Origin: Acidimicrobiales bacterium
GTDB lineage: Bacteria > Actinomycetota > Acidimicrobiia > Acidimicrobiales > SHLQ01
Assembly: GCA_020629635.1 (NCBI GenBank)
Contig: JAHDCX010000012.1
Span: forward strand, 1 to 44,149
DNA length: 44,149 bases
Reading direction: 5' to 3'
Shown here one piece after another: positions 820-11,802 of the stretch. How positions within the stretch are numbered: position 1 is the stretch's first letter; each line of letters starts with the position of its first letter. A model generated the notes under the pieces. The model was not told the origin of the DNA, did not search any database, and saw nothing but the letters and a program-made list of their open reading frames with translations. The position numbers were made by a program, and so were the translations under genes.

Positions 820-1434
820 TCAGAGCCAGGCGGAGGCGAAGTCCTCGCGGCGGGTTTGCCACTCTTCACTCGTGATCGCGTAGCGGAGATGGTCCTCCCA
901 TGCACCATTGATCTCGAGGTAGCGCTCGGCCATGCCCTCGAGCCGGATGCCGAGCTTCTCGACGACCCGGCGAGACGCCTTGTTGCGCGGAATGATCGAG
1001 ATCTGTAGTCGATGCAACTTGATGTCTTCGAATGCGAAGCGCATCGCGACGACCAGCGCCTCGGGGGTGAATCCCTGGCCCGCGGTGCGTTCGTCAATCC
1101 AATAACCGACATACGCGTTCTGGAACGGTCCCCGCTGAATCGACGACACGTTCATCTCGCCCACGAGTTGTCCCTCGTGGAAAACCCCGAACCCGTACCC
1201 GGTCCCGAGCTCGCGCTCCCGCTGACGAGCCGCGCATCGAGACCCGAACGCCGAACGACTCCGCACCACATCGGGTTGGCCAGCCAGCCGCTGAGGCTCC
1301 CAGCGCGTCAGCCACTCGTCGTTGGTGGTCCGCACCTCGTTCCACTGCGCCCAGTCGTCGGCCACCAACGGACGAAGCAGCACCCGCCGACCAAACAGCG
1401 GTCGTGCGCCGGGCTCATTCGAGGATCGAATCAC
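820..1434 (-). CDS. GNAT acetyltransferase, RimJ/RimL-like
   Basis: A 204-residue GNAT protein of the RimJ/RimL type. The C-terminal half has the family pattern: an acetyl-CoA region (GQGFTPEAL), then IIPRNKASRRVVEKLG, where the Asn and the following helix are typical, then a closing W-x-D-H strand. RimJ/RimL relatives acetylate N-terminal amines of ribosomal proteins or small molecules; the substrate here is unknown. The start is GTG at 1434, which overlaps the ppx stop (GTGA), so translation is probably coupled to ppx. An upstream ATG at 1530 would lie inside ppx and adds 32 residues unlike the family. Confidence 0.85.
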   Translation of the reverse strand: MIRSSNEPGARPLFGRRVLLRPLVADDWAQWNEVRTTNDEWLTRWEPQRLAGQPDVVRSRSAFGSRCAARQRERELGTGYGFGVFHEGQLVGEMNVSSIQRGPFQNAYVGYWIDERTAGQGFTPEALVVAMRFAFEDIKLHRLQISIIPRNKASRRVVEKLGIRLEGMAERYLEINGAWEDHLRYAITSEEWQTRREDFASAWL

Positions 1435-2348
1435 GACACCTGCGACAGAATCAGGCCGTCCAGGATGTCGGACTCGGAGACGAGCACGTCCTCGGCGTCG
1501 AAGTAGCGAACGATCCGGGCAAGGATGCACATACCGCCGACGATCGTATCCACTCGCCCAAGCTCGAGTCCGGGGTTGTGGGCGCGGTCCGCTCGCGATT
1601 CGGTGACCAGCGTGCGGAACACGTCCTCGATCGCCGCTCGGTCCAGCCGGAAGTGATGCACCTGCGAGCGATCGTATTCCTGAAGGCCGATCTCGACCAT
1701 CGCCGCCGTCGACACCGTTCCGGCGAGTCCGACGAGCTGCCGTGCGGCGAGCACCATCGGCACCTCACGAACGACGTCGTCGAGGTGCGCCTCGGCGACC
1801 GACAGACACGCCACGAGCTCCTCGGGCAACGGAGGGTCACTCTCGACGTACTTCTCCGAGAACCGCACCGAGCCCATGTCGGTCGAGATCCCTCCTTCCA
1901 TCCGCGACGACCCGATCGCGAACTCGGTCGATCCCCCACCGATGTCGAAGACGAGGAACGGTCCGTCGGCAGGATCGAGCTCGGCGGTCGCTCCGAGGAA
2001 CGACAGCGCGGCCTCCTCCTCGCCAGAGATCAGCTCGGGTTCGACCCCGACCGTCTCACGGGCCGCCACGAAGAAGTCCTCGCGGTTCTCGGCGTCTCGG
2101 GCAGCGGAGGTCGCCGTCATGCGCGTCCCCGCCAGCTCATAACGGTCCATGATCTCGCGGTAGTTGGCCAGCGCAGCGCGAACCCGCTCGATGCCCTCGG
2201 GACTCAACCTGCCGGTGGCGTCGACGCCACGGCCGAGGCCGGTGATCGTCATCTCCCGCTCGAACGTCTCGACGCCGTCGCCGACGATGAGCCGCGTCGA
2301 ATTGGTTCCGCAATCGATGCCAGCATAGATCGGTCGTGTCTCGGTCAT
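1431..2348 (-). CDS. ppx: Ppx/GppA family phosphatase
   Basis: A 305-residue exopolyphosphatase/pppGpp phosphatase-family protein of the short actinobacterial form (only the actin-like ATPase-fold core, no C-terminal HD domain). The first phosphate-binding loop is IYAGIDCGTNSTRLIV near the N-terminus and the second is VFDIGGGSTEFAIG about 140 residues in. It would release phosphate from polyphosphate or from guanosine pentaphosphate; sequence alone does not decide which. The ATG at 2348 overlaps the stop of the upstream MobA-DUF501 gene (ATGA), and its own stop overlaps the acetyltransferase start, so the three form one translationally coupled unit. Placement after DUF501 follows the common actinobacterial order eno-ftsB-DUF501-ppx. 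Confidence 0.93.
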   Translation of the reverse strand: MTETRPIYAGIDCGTNSTRLIVGDGVETFEREMTITGLGRGVDATGRLSPEGIERVRAALANYREIMDRYELAGTRMTATSAARDAENREDFFVAARETVGVEPELISGEEEAALSFLGATAELDPADGPFLVFDIGGGSTEFAIGSSRMEGGISTDMGSVRFSEKYVESDPPLPEELVACLSVAEAHLDDVVREVPMVLAARQLVGLAGTVSTAAMVEIGLQEYDRSQVHHFRLDRAAIEDVFRTLVTESRADRAHNPGLELGRVDTIVGGMCILARIVRYFDAEDVLVSESDILDGLILSQVS

Positions 2349-3376
2349 GATTCCTCCGGGGATTGTTCGACTTCGTGGAGATGGTCGGCCACCCACTGTC
2401 CGACCGGATCGTCACCACCGGCAAGCCACCAGCCGAAGTGGGCATGAAGGCACTTCACCCCGACCCGCGTGCCGCCAACGCCGCCAGTGGGACGATGCGC
2501 CACGTTCGGGTATCGGTCGTCGAGGACGGCGTCACGCTCAGCGGCATACCGGTCGTGCGCCTCGGCGATGACGTCGAGACCGAGCTCGGCTTCCGCACGC
2601 CGGACGCCACCATGGCTTTCGAGTCGGCCGACCAGCAGGTTCTCACGTTCGCCACACAACCAGTAGCGGGTGGGCATCGGGCGTCCGTCGGCGAGCACCG
2701 GATCGTTGCGCAGCACTACCGGCCCGCCGTGCTGGTCTCGGACGACGATCTCCCACCGGCCCATCGGTTCTCGGCCGAGCAGGCGACGCACTGCAGCGAG
2801 ATCGTCGGCCGCCGAACGCGCCAGCTCGAGTGACTCTGTCGTGTCAACATCGATGGGCTCTCCCGGAACGACAACGTCTTCGACGAGCTCAGGGTTCGCT
2901 CGGAGCAGGAGTCGCGCACCGTCATCGCCGGTCGACGGGAGGAGGTCCCACACGCTGCGGTCGAGCCGCGTCGGAGGACGACGGACCTCACCGAATCGGG
3001 CTGCTCGAATCGGTCGGTCACCGGGTTGAAGAAGCGCCTTCCACGCTGCTGCGCCGACGAGTGGCTGGTCGGCCAACCCAACCACCACAGCGTCATGGCC
3101 CGCACCCGCAGCATGCTCGACCGCGACCGCGAGGGAGGTGGCCTGCCCGTCGGCCCATCGTGGGTTGTGAAGGATCGTCTCGTTTCCCCCGGCGAGGAGA
3201 TCCTCGAGCGGATCGGCGCCGGTCACGACGACGATCTCATCGGCGCCAGCACGTCGCACGGCCTCGAGCGACCACTCGAGCACCGGCCGCCCACGAAGGT
3301 CGGCCCGCAACTTGTGGGTCTGCCCATCAAACCGAGACCCCGAGCCAGCGGCCAGCAACACGACGGCCGTCGTCAT
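2345..3376 (-). CDS. MobA-like nucleotidyltransferase fused to DUF501
   Basis: A 343-residue two-domain protein. Residues 1 to about 190 are a MobA/MocA-like NTP transferase: LLAAGSGSRFDG with a following Lys, then GLADQPLV, then a GARLLLRANPEL segment and a D-x-D-T motif near 177-180. Such domains transfer CMP or GMP to molybdopterin. Residues from about 195 to 333 match DUF501 (GREPMGRWEIVVRD, PMPTRYWLCG, VKCLHAH), an uncharacterised actinobacterial family normally encoded alone between ftsB and ppx. The two parts are read in one frame without interruption. The gene begins 35 bases from the oppositely directed DUF6941 gene and lies near an xdhC/coxDE set, which fits a role of the first domain in cofactor maturation. 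The fusion itself is seen directly; any link between the two functions is inference. Confidence 0.85.
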   Translation of the reverse strand: MTTAVVLLAAGSGSRFDGQTHKLRADLRGRPVLEWSLEAVRRAGADEIVVVTGADPLEDLLAGGNETILHNPRWADGQATSLAVAVEHAAGAGHDAVVVGLADQPLVGAAAWKALLQPGDRPIRAARFGEVRRPPTRLDRSVWDLLPSTGDDGARLLLRANPELVEDVVVPGEPIDVDTTESLELARSAADDLAAVRRLLGREPMGRWEIVVRDQHGGPVVLRNDPVLADGRPMPTRYWLCGERENLLVGRLESHGGVRRAEAELGLDVIAEAHDRYAAERDAVLDDRYPNVAHRPTGGVGGTRVGVKCLHAHFGWWLAGGDDPVGQWVADHLHEVEQSPEES

Positions 3377-3411: not shown

Positions 3412-3861
3412 ATGGATGACGAACTCGAGCTCACCCCGCCTGCCTTTCAGGCCATCGTGCTGATGTGTGATGCCGTGCAGGTGAGCGACGGCAAGTTGTT
3501 CATCCTCGGCGGCGGCCTGAGCGTGGTGGGCCCCGCGCCCCAGCCGATCTCGATCGCCGCACGTATCGCCGTACCGTGGGATCAGGCAAACATCCGCCAC
3601 AGCTGGAAGGTCGAGCTGCGCGACGAGGACGGCCAGCCGGTCACGCTCAACGGCAAGCTCGTCGCCCTCAACGGACAGTTCGAGGCTGGGCGGCCGACCG
3701 GGCTCGCGCCGGGGTCTCCCCTGTGGGTGCCGCTCGGCATCAACTTCGGCACGATCCAACTCGCTGGCGGGCGCAGATACACGTGGCGCCTGTTCGTCAA
3801 CGACGACTCGAACGACACGTGGCAGGCGGCATTCACGGTGAGGGGCGCCCCGACAGGCTGA
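3412..3861 (+). CDS. DUF6941 family protein
   Basis: A 149-residue soluble protein, one of four plus-strand genes in the window besides the left-edge fragment. It has the DUF6941 pattern: an early segment AIVLMCDAVQVSDGKLFILGG (here split into LMCDAVQVSDGKLFILGGG), a middle with LRDEDGQPV, and a strand-rich C-terminal half ending YTWRLFVND. No catalytic motif is visible and the family has no assigned function to my knowledge. The ATG at 3412 is preferred because the upstream part of the frame overlaps the divergent MobA-DUF501 gene. It ends 5 bases before the xdhC stop on the other strand, so it interrupts an otherwise unidirectional cluster. Confidence 0.8.
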   Translation: MDDELELTPPAFQAIVLMCDAVQVSDGKLFILGGGLSVVGPAPQPISIAARIAVPWDQANIRHSWKVELRDEDGQPVTLNGKLVALNGQFEAGRPTGLAPGSPLWVPLGINFGTIQLAGGRRYTWRLFVNDDSNDTWQAAFTVRGAPTG

Positions 3862-3866
3862 TCGAA

Positions 3867-4658
3867 TCACCGGTGGATCGGGCCCGCAGTGTCACGCAGC
3901 GCCGGGAGGGTTCGCCCTGTCCGCAACCCGATGATCTCTGCCACGATCGAGATGGCCGTCTCCTCCGGCGTCCGGCCACCCAAATCGAGCCCGATCGGCG
4001 ACCGCAGACGCCCGAGTCCGGCGTCGTCGACGCCAGCCTCTCGCAGTCGCTCGGTTCGTTCGTCGTGTGTGCGGCGCGACCCCATCACCCCGATGTATCC
4101 GACGTGGGTCTCGAGCGCCGACGTGATCGCCGGAACGTCGAACTTTGCGTCGTGGGTGAGTACGGCGACGGCGTCTCGTGGACCCAGCGACTCTCCGATC
4201 TCGTCGAGCAAACGATCCGGCCAATCGACCTCCACACGGTCGGCCATCGGAAAGCGCTGAGTCGTCGCGAAGATCGGCCGGGCGTCGCACACGGTCACCC
4301 GATAGCCGAGAAACTTCGACACCCGGGCAAGGGCGGCCGTGAAATCGACCGCGCCGAAGATCACCATCTGGGGAGGCGGAGCGAAGCTCTCGATGAAGAT
4401 CTCGACGTCGGTCGCGCGGGCTTCGCCATCTGGTCCGTACCGGCGAATCCCGGTCCGGCCGGCGGCGAGTTCGCCGCGCATGTCCCGCTCGACCACCCGA
4501 TCGAGTCCCGAAGAGCCCAGGCTGCCGAGCACGGTGGCGTCGGCGACGAGCAGTTTCGACCCGACGTCGGGTCCCTCGAGCATCGTCGCAAGCGCGACCG
4601 GGCGTTCCTGACGGATCGACTCCGACAGCGCAGCGAAGATGGGCGTCGTCTCGCGCAT
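3867..4658 (-). CDS. XdhC/CoxF family protein, C-terminal (Rossmann) part
   Basis: A 263-residue protein matching the C-terminal XdhC domain: a Rossmann-like start (PPPQMVIFGAVDFTAALARV), then VCDARPIFATTQRFP, then AVAVLTHDAKFDVPAI, then the hallmark YIGVMGSRRTHDER and a final segment with GLDLGGRTPEETAISI. XdhC proteins bind molybdenum cofactor and help sulfurylate and insert it into xanthine dehydrogenase or CO dehydrogenase-type enzymes. The N-terminal XdhC/CoxI domain is encoded separately just upstream (4-base gap), as in split coxF/coxI arrangements. The first 80 residues before the Rossmann part are a degenerate N-terminal region. The ATG at 4658 is the first after the upstream stop. 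Confidence 0.87.
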   Translation of the reverse strand: MRETTPIFAALSESIRQERPVALATMLEGPDVGSKLLVADATVLGSLGSSGLDRVVERDMRGELAAGRTGIRRYGPDGEARATDVEIFIESFAPPPQMVIFGAVDFTAALARVSKFLGYRVTVCDARPIFATTQRFPMADRVEVDWPDRLLDEIGESLGPRDAVAVLTHDAKFDVPAITSALETHVGYIGVMGSRRTHDERTERLREAGVDDAGLGRLRSPIGLDLGGRTPEETAISIVAEIIGLRTGRTLPALRDTAGPIHR

Positions 4659-4662
4659 CGGG

Positions 4663-4977
4663 CTACCAGTCGAGCGGTTCGATGAACAGGTGGATCGTGC
4701 CGCCGCAGGTGAGCCCGACCGCAAAGGCCTCGTCGTCGGAATAGCCGAACGTCACCGTTCGCCGCTCCCCCGAATCGATGATGTCGAGCGCCTCGGTTAC
4801 CACCGCGCCCTCCACACAGCCGCCCGAGACCGATCCGGAGACTTCGCCGTCTTCGTTCACGGCCATGGCCGCACCGGGGAGGCGGGGGCCGGACCCGTCG
4901 AGGTCGACGACCCGCGCGACGGCGATCGCCTTTCCCTGACGCTGCCAGCGATCGAGATCGTTGAGGAGTTCTTTCAT
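4663..4977 (-). CDS. XdhC/CoxI N-terminal domain protein
   Basis: A 104-residue stand-alone N-terminal XdhC/CoxI domain. The cysteine motif VSGGCVEGAVV sits at about residues 50-60 and GLTCGGTIHLFIEPL closes the protein at about 88-102; both cysteine-glycine motifs are typical of this domain. It presumably works with the product of the next gene in handling molybdenum cofactor for a molybdenum hydroxylase. It starts 24 bases after the VWA gene and ends 4 bases before the second xdhC gene. I considered a frameshifted single xdhC, but the short spacer with a proper stop and new ATG, and the known existence of split forms, argue against that. Confidence 0.87.
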   Translation of the reverse strand: MKELLNDLDRWQRQGKAIAVARVVDLDGSGPRLPGAAMAVNEDGEVSGSVSGGCVEGAVVTEALDIIDSGERRTVTFGYSDDEAFAVGLTCGGTIHLFIEPLDW

Positions 4978-5001: not shown

Positions 5002-6132
5002 TCAGGCACCGATCGCCTCCGACAGGGTCCGGAGCGAGTCGAGGCAGTGGCCATCGAGAAACACGTCCACGTGTGGAAGGGCTGCCGCCATCCCCCGAGC
5101 GAGCGGTTCGTAGCCCGGGCTCGCCTTGAGCGGGTTGACCCAGACCACCCGTTCGGCCGTCCGCTGCAGTCGCTCCATCTCGAGCGCCATCTTGTCGGGG
5201 TCCCCGCGGTCCCAGCCGTCGGAAAGCACGACGACGATCGCCCCCCGGGCCATTCCGCGCACTCCCCACTCGTCGTTGAACGACCCGATTGCGTCGCCCA
5301 GCCGCGTCCCCCCGGACCAGTCGACGACCGACGCCGCCGCTTCGGCGACGGCGTCATCGACGTCGTGTGACCCCAACTGGCGGGTCATGCGAGAGAGCCG
5401 GGTGCCAAGTGCGAACACCTCGACACGACCTCGCCCGACGACGGCAGCGTGTGCATATCGGATGAGGACTCGTGCGTAGGGCTCCATCGATCCGCTGACG
5501 TCCAACAACAGGACCAGCCGCCGGGTCCGAGTGCCGGTCTCCGTGGTTGCGAGGCAGATCGGCTCGCCTTCGGTCCGCATCGCGCCGCGAACCGTCCGGC
5601 GGAGGTCCATCCGAGATCCATTGGCGACGGGTCGCCGCCGCCGAGACTGTCGACGCGCCGGGTGGAGGCGCATCTTCGCCATCACCCGCGTCGCTTCGTC
5701 GAGTTCTGCTGCGGTGAACTCGGCAAAATCCTTCGCGCCGAGGACCTCCGCAGCGGAGTAGCGCAGGGCGAGCGTTTCGTCGTCGCCGTCGCCCGCCCCT
5801 TCGGACCCGTCGTCGCCGTCGTCGACCCCGAGCGTGGCGTCTTCGGGCTCGTCCTCGAACCGAACACGGAAGCCGGTCCCATTGCGGTGGAAGAACGCAA
5901 GGAACATGGCGTTGTACATGGCCACGTCCTCGGGCCGGGTCAACAGGGTGGCGCGCCCCGCCCAGTAGACCGCCTCGCCGTCGTCGAGACCGACAGCCTC
6001 GATGGCCTCCCGGTAACGGAGCGAAACCGAGGTCGGCACGACGAGCCCGCCGCTACGGAGGCAATGCACGAAGCCAGCGACCACCCGCGCCGCGTCGACC
6101 GTTGCGGGCGAATCGTCGACGACCGTCGTCAT
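5002..6132 (-). CDS. VWA domain protein, CoxE-like
   Basis: A 376-residue protein with a C-terminal von Willebrand A domain. The metal-ion-dependent adhesion motif is DVSGS at residues 211-215, and a later DGWDRGD carries the conserved Asp. The N-terminal 90 residues (FVHCLRSGGLVVP..., YWAGRATLLTRPED) match CoxE proteins, which pair with a MoxR-type AAA+ ATPase. In carbon-monoxide-oxidising bacteria CoxD and CoxE act on the dehydrogenase metal centre (sulfur and copper insertion). A highly acidic stretch at about 99-120 is a probable flexible linker. The ATPase gene is immediately upstream with a 4-base gap, supporting a shared mRNA and complex. Orientation and order coxD-coxE-coxI/F fit that pathway. 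Confidence 0.88.
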   Translation of the reverse strand: MTTVVDDSPATVDAARVVAGFVHCLRSGGLVVPTSVSLRYREAIEAVGLDDGEAVYWAGRATLLTRPEDVAMYNAMFLAFFHRNGTGFRVRFEDEPEDATLGVDDGDDGSEGAGDGDDETLALRYSAAEVLGAKDFAEFTAAELDEATRVMAKMRLHPARRQSRRRRPVANGSRMDLRRTVRGAMRTEGEPICLATTETGTRTRRLVLLLDVSGSMEPYARVLIRYAHAAVVGRGRVEVFALGTRLSRMTRQLGSHDVDDAVAEAAASVVDWSGGTRLGDAIGSFNDEWGVRGMARGAIVVVLSDGWDRGDPDKMALEMERLQRTAERVVWVNPLKASPGYEPLARGMAAALPHVDVFLDGHCLDSLRTLSEAIGA

Positions 6133-6136
6133 CGAT

Positions 6137-7045
6137 TCAGGCGCCGAGCGCGATCTGGATCACGCTCTCGAGACCCGCCCGTCGCGCCCGCTCCTGATCT
6201 TCGCGGTACTTGAGGAGTGTGCCGAGCGTGGCATCGACACCGTCTTCGGTGAGCGAGGTCTCCGAGAGGAGATGCAACGCGCTCGCCCAGTCCAGCGTTT
6301 CAGCGATCCCCGGTGGCTTGTACATGCCCATCTCGCGGAACTGCGACGTAGCTGACGCCACCTGTCGGGCCAGCGATTCGTCGACCTGCGGGGTCTTTCG
6401 GGTGATGATCTCGACCTCACGCTCGAAGTCCGGATGCTCGACCCAGTGGTACAACGCGCGCCGCTTGAGCGCGTCATGCACGTCGCGGGTGCGGTTGGAC
6501 GTGATGATGACGAACGGAGGCGTCTCGGCCCGAAATTCACCGAGCTCGGGCACCGTGACGGTGTAGTCGGACAGGGCCTCGAGCAGGAACGCCTCGAACT
6601 CGTCGTCGGCGCGGTCGACCTCGTCAATCAGCAGAACGGGCGCCACGTCGGCTCGATGGTCGATCGCTGCGAGCAGCGGCCGCCGGATCAGGAAACGTTC
6701 GTCGAACAGGGCGTCCTCGAGTGAGTCGGCGTCTTCGGCGCTGGCTGTGCCGGTCGCTTCAGCCGTCCGAAGATGCAACAGCTGACGGGTGTAGTTCCAT
6801 TCGTACAGTGCTTGCGAGGCGTCGATGCCCTCGTAGCACTGCAGCCGAATCAGCTCGGCACCGCGGGCTTGGGCCACCACCTTGGCGAGCTCGGTCTTGC
6901 CGACACCGGCCTCGCCTTCGAGCAGGAGCGGTCGCCGCAGCGATGCGGCAAGAAAGACCGACGTCGCCAGACCACGATCGGCGAGATAGCCGTGCGATGC
7001 GAGCGTGTCGAGAACCGCGTCGACCGAGGCAAACCCAGAATCCAT
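6137..7045 (-). CDS. MoxR-family AAA+ ATPase, CoxD-like
   Basis: A 302-residue AAA+ ATPase. Walker A is GEAGVGKT at residues 44-51, Walker B is VLLIDEVDRAD at about 137-147, and sensor-type segments follow (VIITSNRTRDVHDALKRRAL). The segment LIRLQCYEGIDASQALYEWNY is characteristic of the CoxD/MoxR subgroup that partners VWA proteins. It probably remodels or loads metal into a molybdenum hydroxylase together with the CoxE-like protein encoded next. No structural subunits (large molybdopterin, FAD, 2Fe-2S) are in the window, so the client enzyme is unknown. The ATG at 7045 lies 35 bases after the phosphodiesterase stop, and the two may share a transcript. Confidence 0.9.
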   Translation of the reverse strand: MDSGFASVDAVLDTLASHGYLADRGLATSVFLAASLRRPLLLEGEAGVGKTELAKVVAQARGAELIRLQCYEGIDASQALYEWNYTRQLLHLRTAEATGTASAEDADSLEDALFDERFLIRRPLLAAIDHRADVAPVLLIDEVDRADDEFEAFLLEALSDYTVTVPELGEFRAETPPFVIITSNRTRDVHDALKRRALYHWVEHPDFEREVEIITRKTPQVDESLARQVASATSQFREMGMYKPPGIAETLDWASALHLLSETSLTEDGVDATLGTLLKYREDQERARRAGLESVIQIALGA

Positions 7046-7080: not shown

Positions 7081-8532
7081 TCAGTTGACCCGGAGATCCT
7101 GCGCAGCGTTGTAGACGGAGCCGGGCACCGCTGGCAGGCCGAGCAGATCCAGCGCAAGGTTGGCCGCCTCGTGTCCCCGGATCGGCTGGACATCGGCGTT
7201 GTTGGCGAACTGGAGTCGTCCAGGCTCGCGCCGCTGCGGATTCAGGTCGTACAGGTCGCTGCCGGGGACGACGAAGGGCGCCCACACCGCCATGGGCACG
7301 ATGTAGTTCTCCGGATTCGTCGCGTCGGAGTGGAGGAGCTCGCCTGCCGGGCCCCCGTGGTCGCTCGTCACGATGATCGCCGTGCTGGCCCGACGCTGCG
7401 GATCGGACCAGACCGCATCCACGACGCGGCCGACCACCAGATCGGCCTCGGCGAGCCCGAGCTCGTACCCCGACGTCGCCCACCCGTGCGCATGACCGAA
7501 CTCGTCAGCCGATCGGACGTGCACGAAGCTGTACCGGAGAGGCTCCGTGTGATCGAGCGTGTCGAGGAAGTCTTCGACGGCGTCGACGGGATCCGCCCGG
7601 ACGAAGAAGTCGATCTTGTCCCGGCCGTTGTCGGGACCGGTCATGTCGGGGGCGCCGTTGCGGCCGTCCCAGTTCCGATCGATCATTTCGAACTTCGACT
7701 TGCCGGCCCACACGCCAGTACGGAATCCGTGGTCGTGGACGACGTCGAACACCGACGCGACATAGAAGCCCGCATAGTCGTGGACCTCGATGAACGGATC
7801 CTGATTGATGTCGACGCGGTGACCGTCGGGGCCCCACACCGGTCGCCCGGTGAATTGCGAGGTGTGATTCGGCAGTGTCTTCGTCAGGTCGGCGTCGGTC
7901 CGGGCGTTGCGGGTGGACGCCGACGCGGCGAAGAGCGCATGCAGCCGCGACATCGTGTCCGCCCGAACATGATCCGCTCGGAGCCCGTCGATGCTGAGAT
8001 GGATGACCCGCTCCACGGTTCGGGTGGCTGGCGGAGTGGCGTCGTCTGCCGCCGTCACCGGGGCGTCGCAGATCCGAACCTCGATGTCGGGCGCACACAC
8101 GTCGATCGCCGGACCGCCTCGTCCCTCATCTCGACCGTCGCCGCCGAGCAGCCGGTCCTGCTGACGGTTTCCGAAGAGCAGGTCGTCGCCCTTGCCGCCG
8201 AGCAGCAGGTCGCGTCCGGGGCCGCCCCGCAGCCGATCGTTGCCACCGTCGCCTCGGATGATGTCGTGGCCCTCCTGGCCGTAGATGCGGTCGTGGCCAC
8301 CCGCCCCGCAGATGACGTCATCGCCGGCGCCGGCGAAGATGAAGTCCTTGCCTGCCCCCGCATGGATGACGTCGGGACCGGGAGTTCCTTCGATGAAGTC
8401 CGGACCGTCCGTCCCAACGATCGTCGCCGCAAGCCCGTTGCAGGTGGGCGGCGTTTGCCCGGCCGACGCCACCGGTGCGGCGAGAACCACCGCAACAACG
8501 GCGAGAGACGCGAGAAGAGCGATCGATCGCAT
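7081..8532 (-). CDS. Secreted alkaline phosphatase-superfamily phosphodiesterase with RTX repeats
   Basis: A 483-residue exported protein. Residues 1-24 are a Sec signal peptide ending APVASAG. Residues from about 36 to 130 are RTX-type calcium-binding nonapeptides (GGxGxDxxx class, for example GAGDDVICG, GGKGDDLLFG). From about 170 the nucleotide pyrophosphatase/phosphodiesterase-like alkaline phosphatase domain begins: metal-binding Asp in HLSIDGLRAD, predicted nucleophile Thr in KTLPNHTSQFTG, further metal ligands in DEFGHAHGW and IIVTSDHGG. It probably cleaves phosphomono- or diesters outside the cell, with calcium stabilising the N-terminal half; the substrate is not readable. The RTX module at the N-terminus and a Sec signal, rather than a C-terminal RTX with type I export, are noteworthy. 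Its job beside the coxDE genes is unclear. Confidence 0.88.
   Translation of the reverse strand: MRSIALLASLAVVAVVLAAPVASAGQTPPTCNGLAATIVGTDGPDFIEGTPGPDVIHAGAGKDFIFAGAGDDVICGAGGHDRIYGQEGHDIIRGDGGNDRLRGGPGRDLLLGGKGDDLLFGNRQQDRLLGGDGRDEGRGGPAIDVCAPDIEVRICDAPVTAADDATPPATRTVERVIHLSIDGLRADHVRADTMSRLHALFAASASTRNARTDADLTKTLPNHTSQFTGRPVWGPDGHRVDINQDPFIEVHDYAGFYVASVFDVVHDHGFRTGVWAGKSKFEMIDRNWDGRNGAPDMTGPDNGRDKIDFFVRADPVDAVEDFLDTLDHTEPLRYSFVHVRSADEFGHAHGWATSGYELGLAEADLVVGRVVDAVWSDPQRRASTAIIVTSDHGGPAGELLHSDATNPENYIVPMAVWAPFVVPGSDLYDLNPQRREPGRLQFANNADVQPIRGHEAANLALDLLGLPAVPGSVYNAAQDLRVN

Positions 8533-8590: not shown

Positions 8591-11802
<3,212 letters not shown>

Follow-up and report, generated by a model that had tools for sequence, protein, structure and literature searches.

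MocA-type enzymes (MocA/PucB; TIGR03310, PF12804) are CTP:molybdopterin cytidylyltransferases and are distinguished from the MobA type by their first motif, LAAG versus L.GG. An operon that contains both xdhC and mocA is described in excerpts of PMC2997495. The coxDEFG genes are known from Oligotropha carboxidovorans in which, according to part of the published account, CoxG was dispensable for assembly of the metal centre and the mutant still used CO, at a slower rate (PMC4240915). DUF501 (PF04417; Rv1025, cgp_1113) is usually a stand-alone protein. In M. smegmatis, DUF501 is C-terminal and fused to the product of its upstream gene, FtsB (sections of PMC9846249). We found no paper that describes a fusion of MocA to DUF501 or of DUF501 to Ppx, as judged by titles and the beginnings of abstracts.

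The locus described here joins a MocA-type nucleotidyltransferase to DUF501 in a single open reading frame. It lies in a stretch of 44,149 nucleotides from an Acidimicrobiales bacterium (hereafter the window; Table 1). The initial annotation had proposed a nucleotidyltransferase fused to DUF501, and this was confirmed: the two halves are in one frame and both Pfam domains score above their cut-offs. PF12804 (NTP_transf_3) covers amino acids 5-161 of the fusion (E 8.3e-25; 88.3 bits versus a cut-off of 27), and PF04417 (DUF501) covers amino acids 212-330 (E 3.1e-21; 76.2 bits versus a cut-off of 23.8). The DUF501 match spans positions 3-138 of the 139 in the profile, a complete domain, and is the only copy of DUF501 that we found in the genome. 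The TGA stop codon of the fusion and the ATG of ppx overlap within the four bases ATGA. As with known DUF501 genes, ppx is downstream and ftsB and eno are further upstream. Unlike them, the DUF501 of the window has no conserved start of its own, and its fusion partner is MocA, not FtsB as in M. smegmatis.

Table 1. Features of the MocA-DUF501 locus (positions in the window)
Feature	Position	Strand	Remarks
MocA-DUF501 fusion gene	2345..3376	-	343 aa, ATG start, no internal stop
MocA-type nucleotidyltransferase half (aa 1-188)	2813..3376	-	Pfam match and retained motifs
DUF501 half (aa 189-343)	2348..2812	-	conserved GGVGGTR.GVKCLHAH core
Junction	2777..2839	-	predicted helix, aa 180-200, running from MocA half into DUF501 half; site of coxG in relatives
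Ppx/GppA exopolyphosphatase	1431..2348	-	separate gene here; fused to DUF501 in other genomes
DUF6941 protein	3412..3861	+	opposite strand, between xdhC and fused mocA
XdhC/CoxF-type Moco chaperone	3867..4658	-	XdhC_C and XdhC_CoxI domains
Short XdhC_CoxI-domain protein	4663..4977	-	Pfam domain
CoxE-type VWA protein	5002..6132	-	
CoxD/MadB-type AAA+ ATPase	6137..7045	-	
Phosphodiesterase-like protein, glycine/aspartate-rich repeats	7081-8532	-	named by eye; between ftsB and coxD
FtsB/DivIC-type protein	8591..9031	-	directly before DUF501 in L047 and L052

The N-terminal half is, by its motifs and context, of the MocA type, although it scores too low to be filed as a TIGR03310 equivalog. It has the LAAG...R...K and DQP motifs of MocA/PucB and xdhC, coxD and coxE as neighbours. 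Specifically, it keeps LAAGSGSRF...HK (LAAGxGxRF...HK, amino acids 8-22), LADQP (101-105), GDDGAR (150-155) and DVDT (from 176). The best NCBIfam model for this half was TIGR03310 (the MocA/YgfJ maturation family), with a score under the equivalog cut-off (71.5 versus 186.45 bits). Its relatives in the PDB are 3d5n by sequence and Rv0371c (2we9/2wee) by fold. Thus, of the initial description as a MobA-like domain fused to DUF501, the fusion stands and the MobA-like assignment does not. A MobA-like protein is encoded elsewhere in the genome (C19:41167). We had considered that the fused domain might be the only MocA of the genome and dropped this idea, as there is a second, divergent MocA-type gene (C31:133081-133553, minus strand; loci L287 and L291). 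That gene is split over two frames in the assembly, either as a pseudogene or through a frameshift error; were it intact, it could make the fused MocA redundant.

The fusion was present throughout the genus to which the window belongs. It was found in one frame in all 10 genomes with a match out of the 11 genus genomes searched; the other genome (G410) is 73% complete and gave no match. The fusions of the nine relatives are 58-65% identical to that of the window, with no stop codons inside. The initial annotation had allowed for a frameshift error that joins two normally separate genes. The genome of the window is in 37 contigs, which leaves room for such an error in assembly or sequencing, but the same one-frame joint in 10 of 10 matching genus genomes, together with differently spaced joints in three genomes outside the genus (see below), reduces its likelihood to practically nil. 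The recurrence of the one-frame fusion in all ten genomes likewise excludes chance.

The initial annotation had also suggested looking for the fusion in other Acidimicrobiia, and there it recurs. Fusions with an intact MocA domain were found outside the genus in one genome of family f9 (G190) and in two genomes of genus g5 in family f2 (G051 and G470), so that three families contain the intact fusion. The eight fused genomes of the genus that were included in a concatenated tree formed one clade with support of 100. The distance between the DxDT motif of MocA and the LLGR motif of DUF501, counted manually, was 19-20 residues within the genus and had other lengths in G190, G051 and G470, as expected from separate fusion events. 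Judged from these comparisons of sequence, the fusion is a real single gene, present in every matching member of the genus and recurrent in the order. There was no MocA fusion among 39 distinct DUF501 proteins from 44 loci of named GTDB r220 genomes, a scan that may omit records of the genome of the window or its close kin. Neither was DUF501 fused to MocA or Ppx in any of the 30 best-scoring loci from a phylum-wide search (152 genomes with a match); DUF501 was alone in all 30. These sets of loci are biased toward the best matches to the query.

An internal start that yields free DUF501 in addition to the fusion, also raised in the initial annotation, was not conserved across the genus and is possible in three of its genomes. 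In G403, G404 and G408, there is an ATG 13-14 codons before LLGR with an upstream GAGGA (duplex energies of -5.7 to -8.1 kcal/mol), and the only candidate in the window is a GTG three codons before LLGR. However, no start is common to the genus within the 30 codons before LLGR, G407 has no start at all before LLGR, and the GTG of the window has no clear ribosome site. Moreover, the structural model predicts a continuous helix across the junction. We therefore regard the production of two proteins from this open reading frame as unlikely.

The fusion gene is part of a maturation gene cluster that is interposed in a conserved neighbourhood of DUF501. On the minus strand, the order of genes is eno, ftsB, the phosphodiesterase-like gene, coxD/madB, coxE, two genes for XdhC/CoxI-domain proteins, the fusion, and ppx. 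This includes the eno-ftsB-DUF501-ppx neighbourhood, with the cox cluster between ftsB and DUF501. In two loci outside the family (L047 and L052), ftsB adjoins duf501, which is followed by ppx, and the cluster is absent, suggesting insertion of the cluster between these two genes. The earlier statement that DUF501 lies between ftsB and ppx is directly true only of such cluster-free genomes; the usual arrangement in the order has the cox/mocA cluster between ftsB and DUF501.

Several features of the cluster vary among relatives. The phosphodiesterase-like gene is present at the ftsB-coxD site in L132, L134, L136 and L137 and absent from L131, L133, L138 and L139. The DUF6941 gene has the same position in the genus and in most of the sister-genus loci that we read, and is inverted in G395 (L140). 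G406 has an extra copy of the C-terminal end of xdhC (L134:8653-8844) beside an intact xdhC.

The cluster resembles the Oligotropha genes, as known from part of their description (PMC4240915), in having coxD, coxE and coxF/XdhC. It differs in that it contains mocA and lacks coxG, a gene that relatives of the window do have in the cluster. There was no match to PF06240 (COXG) or to PF02738 on the contig of the window (C14), and the locus is not a CO dehydrogenase operon with coxG. The genome encodes eight PF02738 molybdenum-hydroxylase proteins above the cut-off, all on other contigs, and the cluster thus looks maturation-only.

Comparison of gene orders points to loss of coxG before the fusion. 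In the sister genera of the family, seven of eight genomes had a match; coxG is between mocA and duf501 in six, and the contig of G400, the seventh, breaks off within coxG, immediately ahead of duf501. The gene in the gap matches PF06240. Among loci that were picked by hand and are mostly best-scoring, coxG was between mocA and duf501 in 14 of 15 from the order, in 10 of 11 unfused loci from genus g5, and in 9 of 11 from family f14 (of the other two, one had coxG-duf501 and one only duf501-ppx). In the exception in the order, L031 (G305), the gap of 0.86 kb gave no coxG match at E 1e-4. In g5, the exception is G385, which stands beside the fused G051 and G470 and in which mocA and duf501 are adjacent and unfused with no coxG. 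The five loci from family f9, picked in the same way, comprised three with mocA-coxG-duf501, one with coxG-duf501 and mocA approximately 2 kb away, and G435, a second case of adjacent, unfused mocA and duf501 without coxG. By their gene order, G385 and G435 look like intermediates of the fusion. Fused loci have no coxG; separate mocA, coxG, duf501 and ppx genes are the arrangement of the sister genera and of a large part of the order.

Based on these comparisons, the ancestor of the genus would have had the order coxD-coxE-xdhC-mocA-coxG-duf501-ppx. Once the spacer coxG was lost, mocA would have been next to duf501, and another minor change would have removed the stop codon of mocA and joined the frames. 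This course is simpler than fission of an ancestral fusion, which would need repeated insertion of coxG at the same place. Given the phenotype of the Oligotropha mutant described above, the loss of coxG in the genus may be tolerable. The genus has one to three COXG matches per genome elsewhere. These copies form their own clade (support of 97, together with one copy from G397), apart from the coxG of the cluster; the backbone of the tree has low support (26-56) and a small number of divergent copies belong to neither group. With such a backbone, relocation of coxG rather than its loss is also compatible with the tree. The initial annotation had left a choice between a shared pathway and a chance joining when the cluster landed at this site. 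Of these, a joining by position is retained; the landing of the cluster does not fit as its time, as the cluster was already beside DUF501 before the fusion, with coxG as a spacer, in the sister genera and across the order. A shared pathway did not fare well either (see below). The fusion is probably a by-product of the deletion.

The MocA half of the fusion keeps nearly all of the columns that are conserved in separate MocA proteins. The reference was a set of 87 distinct separate MocAs, in which 37 columns reach a conservation of 93% or more. The fusion of the window keeps 34 of the 37; all 13 intact fusions keep 30-37, as do the 87 separate MocAs. DUF501 is strongly conserved, with 40 invariant columns out of 155 in a comparison of 40 sequences.

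For structural modelling we used alignments A3 and A4 and set aside a joint alignment of all halves (A1), in which the MocA rows looked misaligned. The resulting model of the whole fusion (13 sequences) had a pLDDT of 80.7 and a pTM of 0.63, has the helix at amino acids 180-200 across the joint, and matches the structures of Rv0371c and 3d5n. The model of DUF501 was confident (mean pLDDT of 91.0, pTM of 0.85). We found no relatives of DUF501 among solved structures: a sequence search gave no match at E up to 10, a fold search gave none at E<=0.001, and a second comparison with 106 chains gave none with Z>=2.

We considered whether the fusion had relaxed selection on MocA. The ratios of branch lengths in the genus to those in its sisters, on a fixed tree, were highest for the MocA half at 2.49, with 2.42 for xdhC, 1.60 for duf501 and 1.45 for the concatenate. 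The MocA half is fast by both pairwise and tree rates, but xdhC is equally fast, and we rejected relaxed selection caused by the fusion. Relaxed constraint on the MocA half of the genus would be compatible with the fast rates.

We favor the reading, with a probability of about 0.78, that the fusion is a single gene that arose by loss of coxG and subsequent joining, and that its product has two independent domains, a MocA that serves hydroxylases and a DUF501 that does its own job. Most likely, a helix connects these domains within a single chain. The N-terminal domain would still act as a CMP transferase on the molybdenum cofactor, on behalf of xanthine dehydrogenase/CO dehydrogenase-family hydroxylases that are encoded elsewhere; we infer this activity because of the retained motifs, the neighbouring genes, and the eight such enzymes that the genome encodes. 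The C-terminal domain would carry out the function of DUF501, which is reported to be essential in C. diphtheriae, C. glutamicum and M. tuberculosis (PMC10166564). Our best reading is that the fusion is kept because DUF501 is probably essential. Because no start for DUF501 itself is conserved in the genus, the MocA domain would be hard to lose, and this would help explain why MocA domains that have lost their motifs are still attached in family f14 (see below).

The fusion does not show DUF501 to be a molybdenum-cofactor protein. A functional (Rosetta-stone) fusion would place DUF501 in maturation of the molybdenum cofactor, for example as a carrier or docking domain between MocA and XdhC, with selection having driven the fusion. 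The recurrence of the intact fusion in three families would fit, as would the co-linearity of mocA and duf501 in much of the order (within approximately 1.7 kb in 26 genomes, among the matches listed). However, of 197 genomes from across the phylum, 152 have a DUF501, and L047 and L052 carry ftsB-DUF501-ppx with no cluster. Eleven fused MocA domains lack the catalytic motifs, and the DUF501 attached to ten of them is still conserved. DUF501 is also fused to Ppx and, in the cited part of PMC9846249, to FtsB. Fusion of DUF501 with upstream and downstream neighbours alike favours position over pathway as the cause of the MocA case. We thus consider a functional fusion quite unlikely.

DUF501 is fused to Ppx in many genomes. 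Searches at the levels of class, family and genus had yielded 116 distinct DUF501 proteins, which we classed by fusion: 76 were alone (two of them partial), 13 were intact MocA-DUF501, 12 were DUF501-Ppx, 10 were motif-less MocA-DUF501-Ppx, 1 was motif-less MocA-DUF501, and 4 were DUF501 with part of Ppx. The 39 from the GTDB scan comprised 22 alone, 13 DUF501-Ppx, and 4 with part of Ppx. An open frame through DUF501 and Ppx is by itself no proof of one polypeptide. The motifs of both were in one frame in 19 of 29 loci examined (for the other 10, including the window, the motifs were not both in one frame, in some only from too strict a pattern), and 10 of these 19 had no ATG, GTG or TTG between the motifs and should therefore be single chains. 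L190, L195, L197, L199, L200, L202 and L206 are of this last kind; GTDB loci such as L087-L094 also have DUF501 and Ppx in one frame. The joint with no internal start suggests a link between DUF501 and Ppx. In L012, L017, L026, L215, L098, L112 and L118, DUF501 is followed in frame by no more than the C-terminal portion of Ppx, which looks like decay of ppx in that lineage. L101 (CAMCTY010000030.1), titled as a Bifidobacterium breve metagenome-assembled genome, has an Acidimicrobiia-like DUF501 with 56% identity to that of the window and is probably a mislabelled bin.

The motif-less MocA domains of family f14 are conserved. Triple fusions of a motif-less MocA, DUF501 and Ppx were found in family f14 (L180, L181, L182, L184, L186, L187, L188, L192, L008 and L009). 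The 11 fused MocAs of this kind (ten from f14, and G299 from f9) keep 10-16 of the 37 columns and have lost the nucleotide-binding motif. Across the ten f14 genomes, the median pairwise identity of the MocA domain was 45% (range of 34-80), with 32 columns identical in at least nine of the ten, compared to an identity of 22% (maximum of 35) for shuffled copies aligned by the same procedure. The DUF501 of the same ten proteins had a median identity of 71% and 77 such columns. The identity above that of the shuffled copies indicates a conserved domain rather than one that is drifting freely. This conservation suggests that, once fused, a domain can take on a role together with DUF501, and speaks against a pure accident in this family. 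A separate MocA match was also present in f14 genomes G256, G394, G446 and G437 (48-52% identity), with a weaker one in G436 (39% identity).

We offer as a speculation, doubtful as it stands, that DUF501 and Ppx act in one pathway, given how many genomes of the order have them joined, that the motif-less MocA of f14 is a nucleotide-sensing or scaffolding pseudoenzyme that controls DUF501-Ppx, and that the fusion in the window represents an early, catalytic stage. If true, the route would be from deletion to accidental fusion, to lost activity, and then to a new role.

The fusions show that the N-terminus of DUF501 can accommodate a partner, caution against taking the MocA case for a functional connection with molybdenum, and make Ppx the better candidate for a partner. 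The motif-less MocA-DUF501-Ppx proteins and the link between DUF501 and Ppx are the more interesting by-products of this analysis. The order would hold a stepwise record of a gene fusion, from genes that are spaced, through loss of the spacer and adjacency, to a fusion with intact motifs and then to one that is motif-less and conserved.
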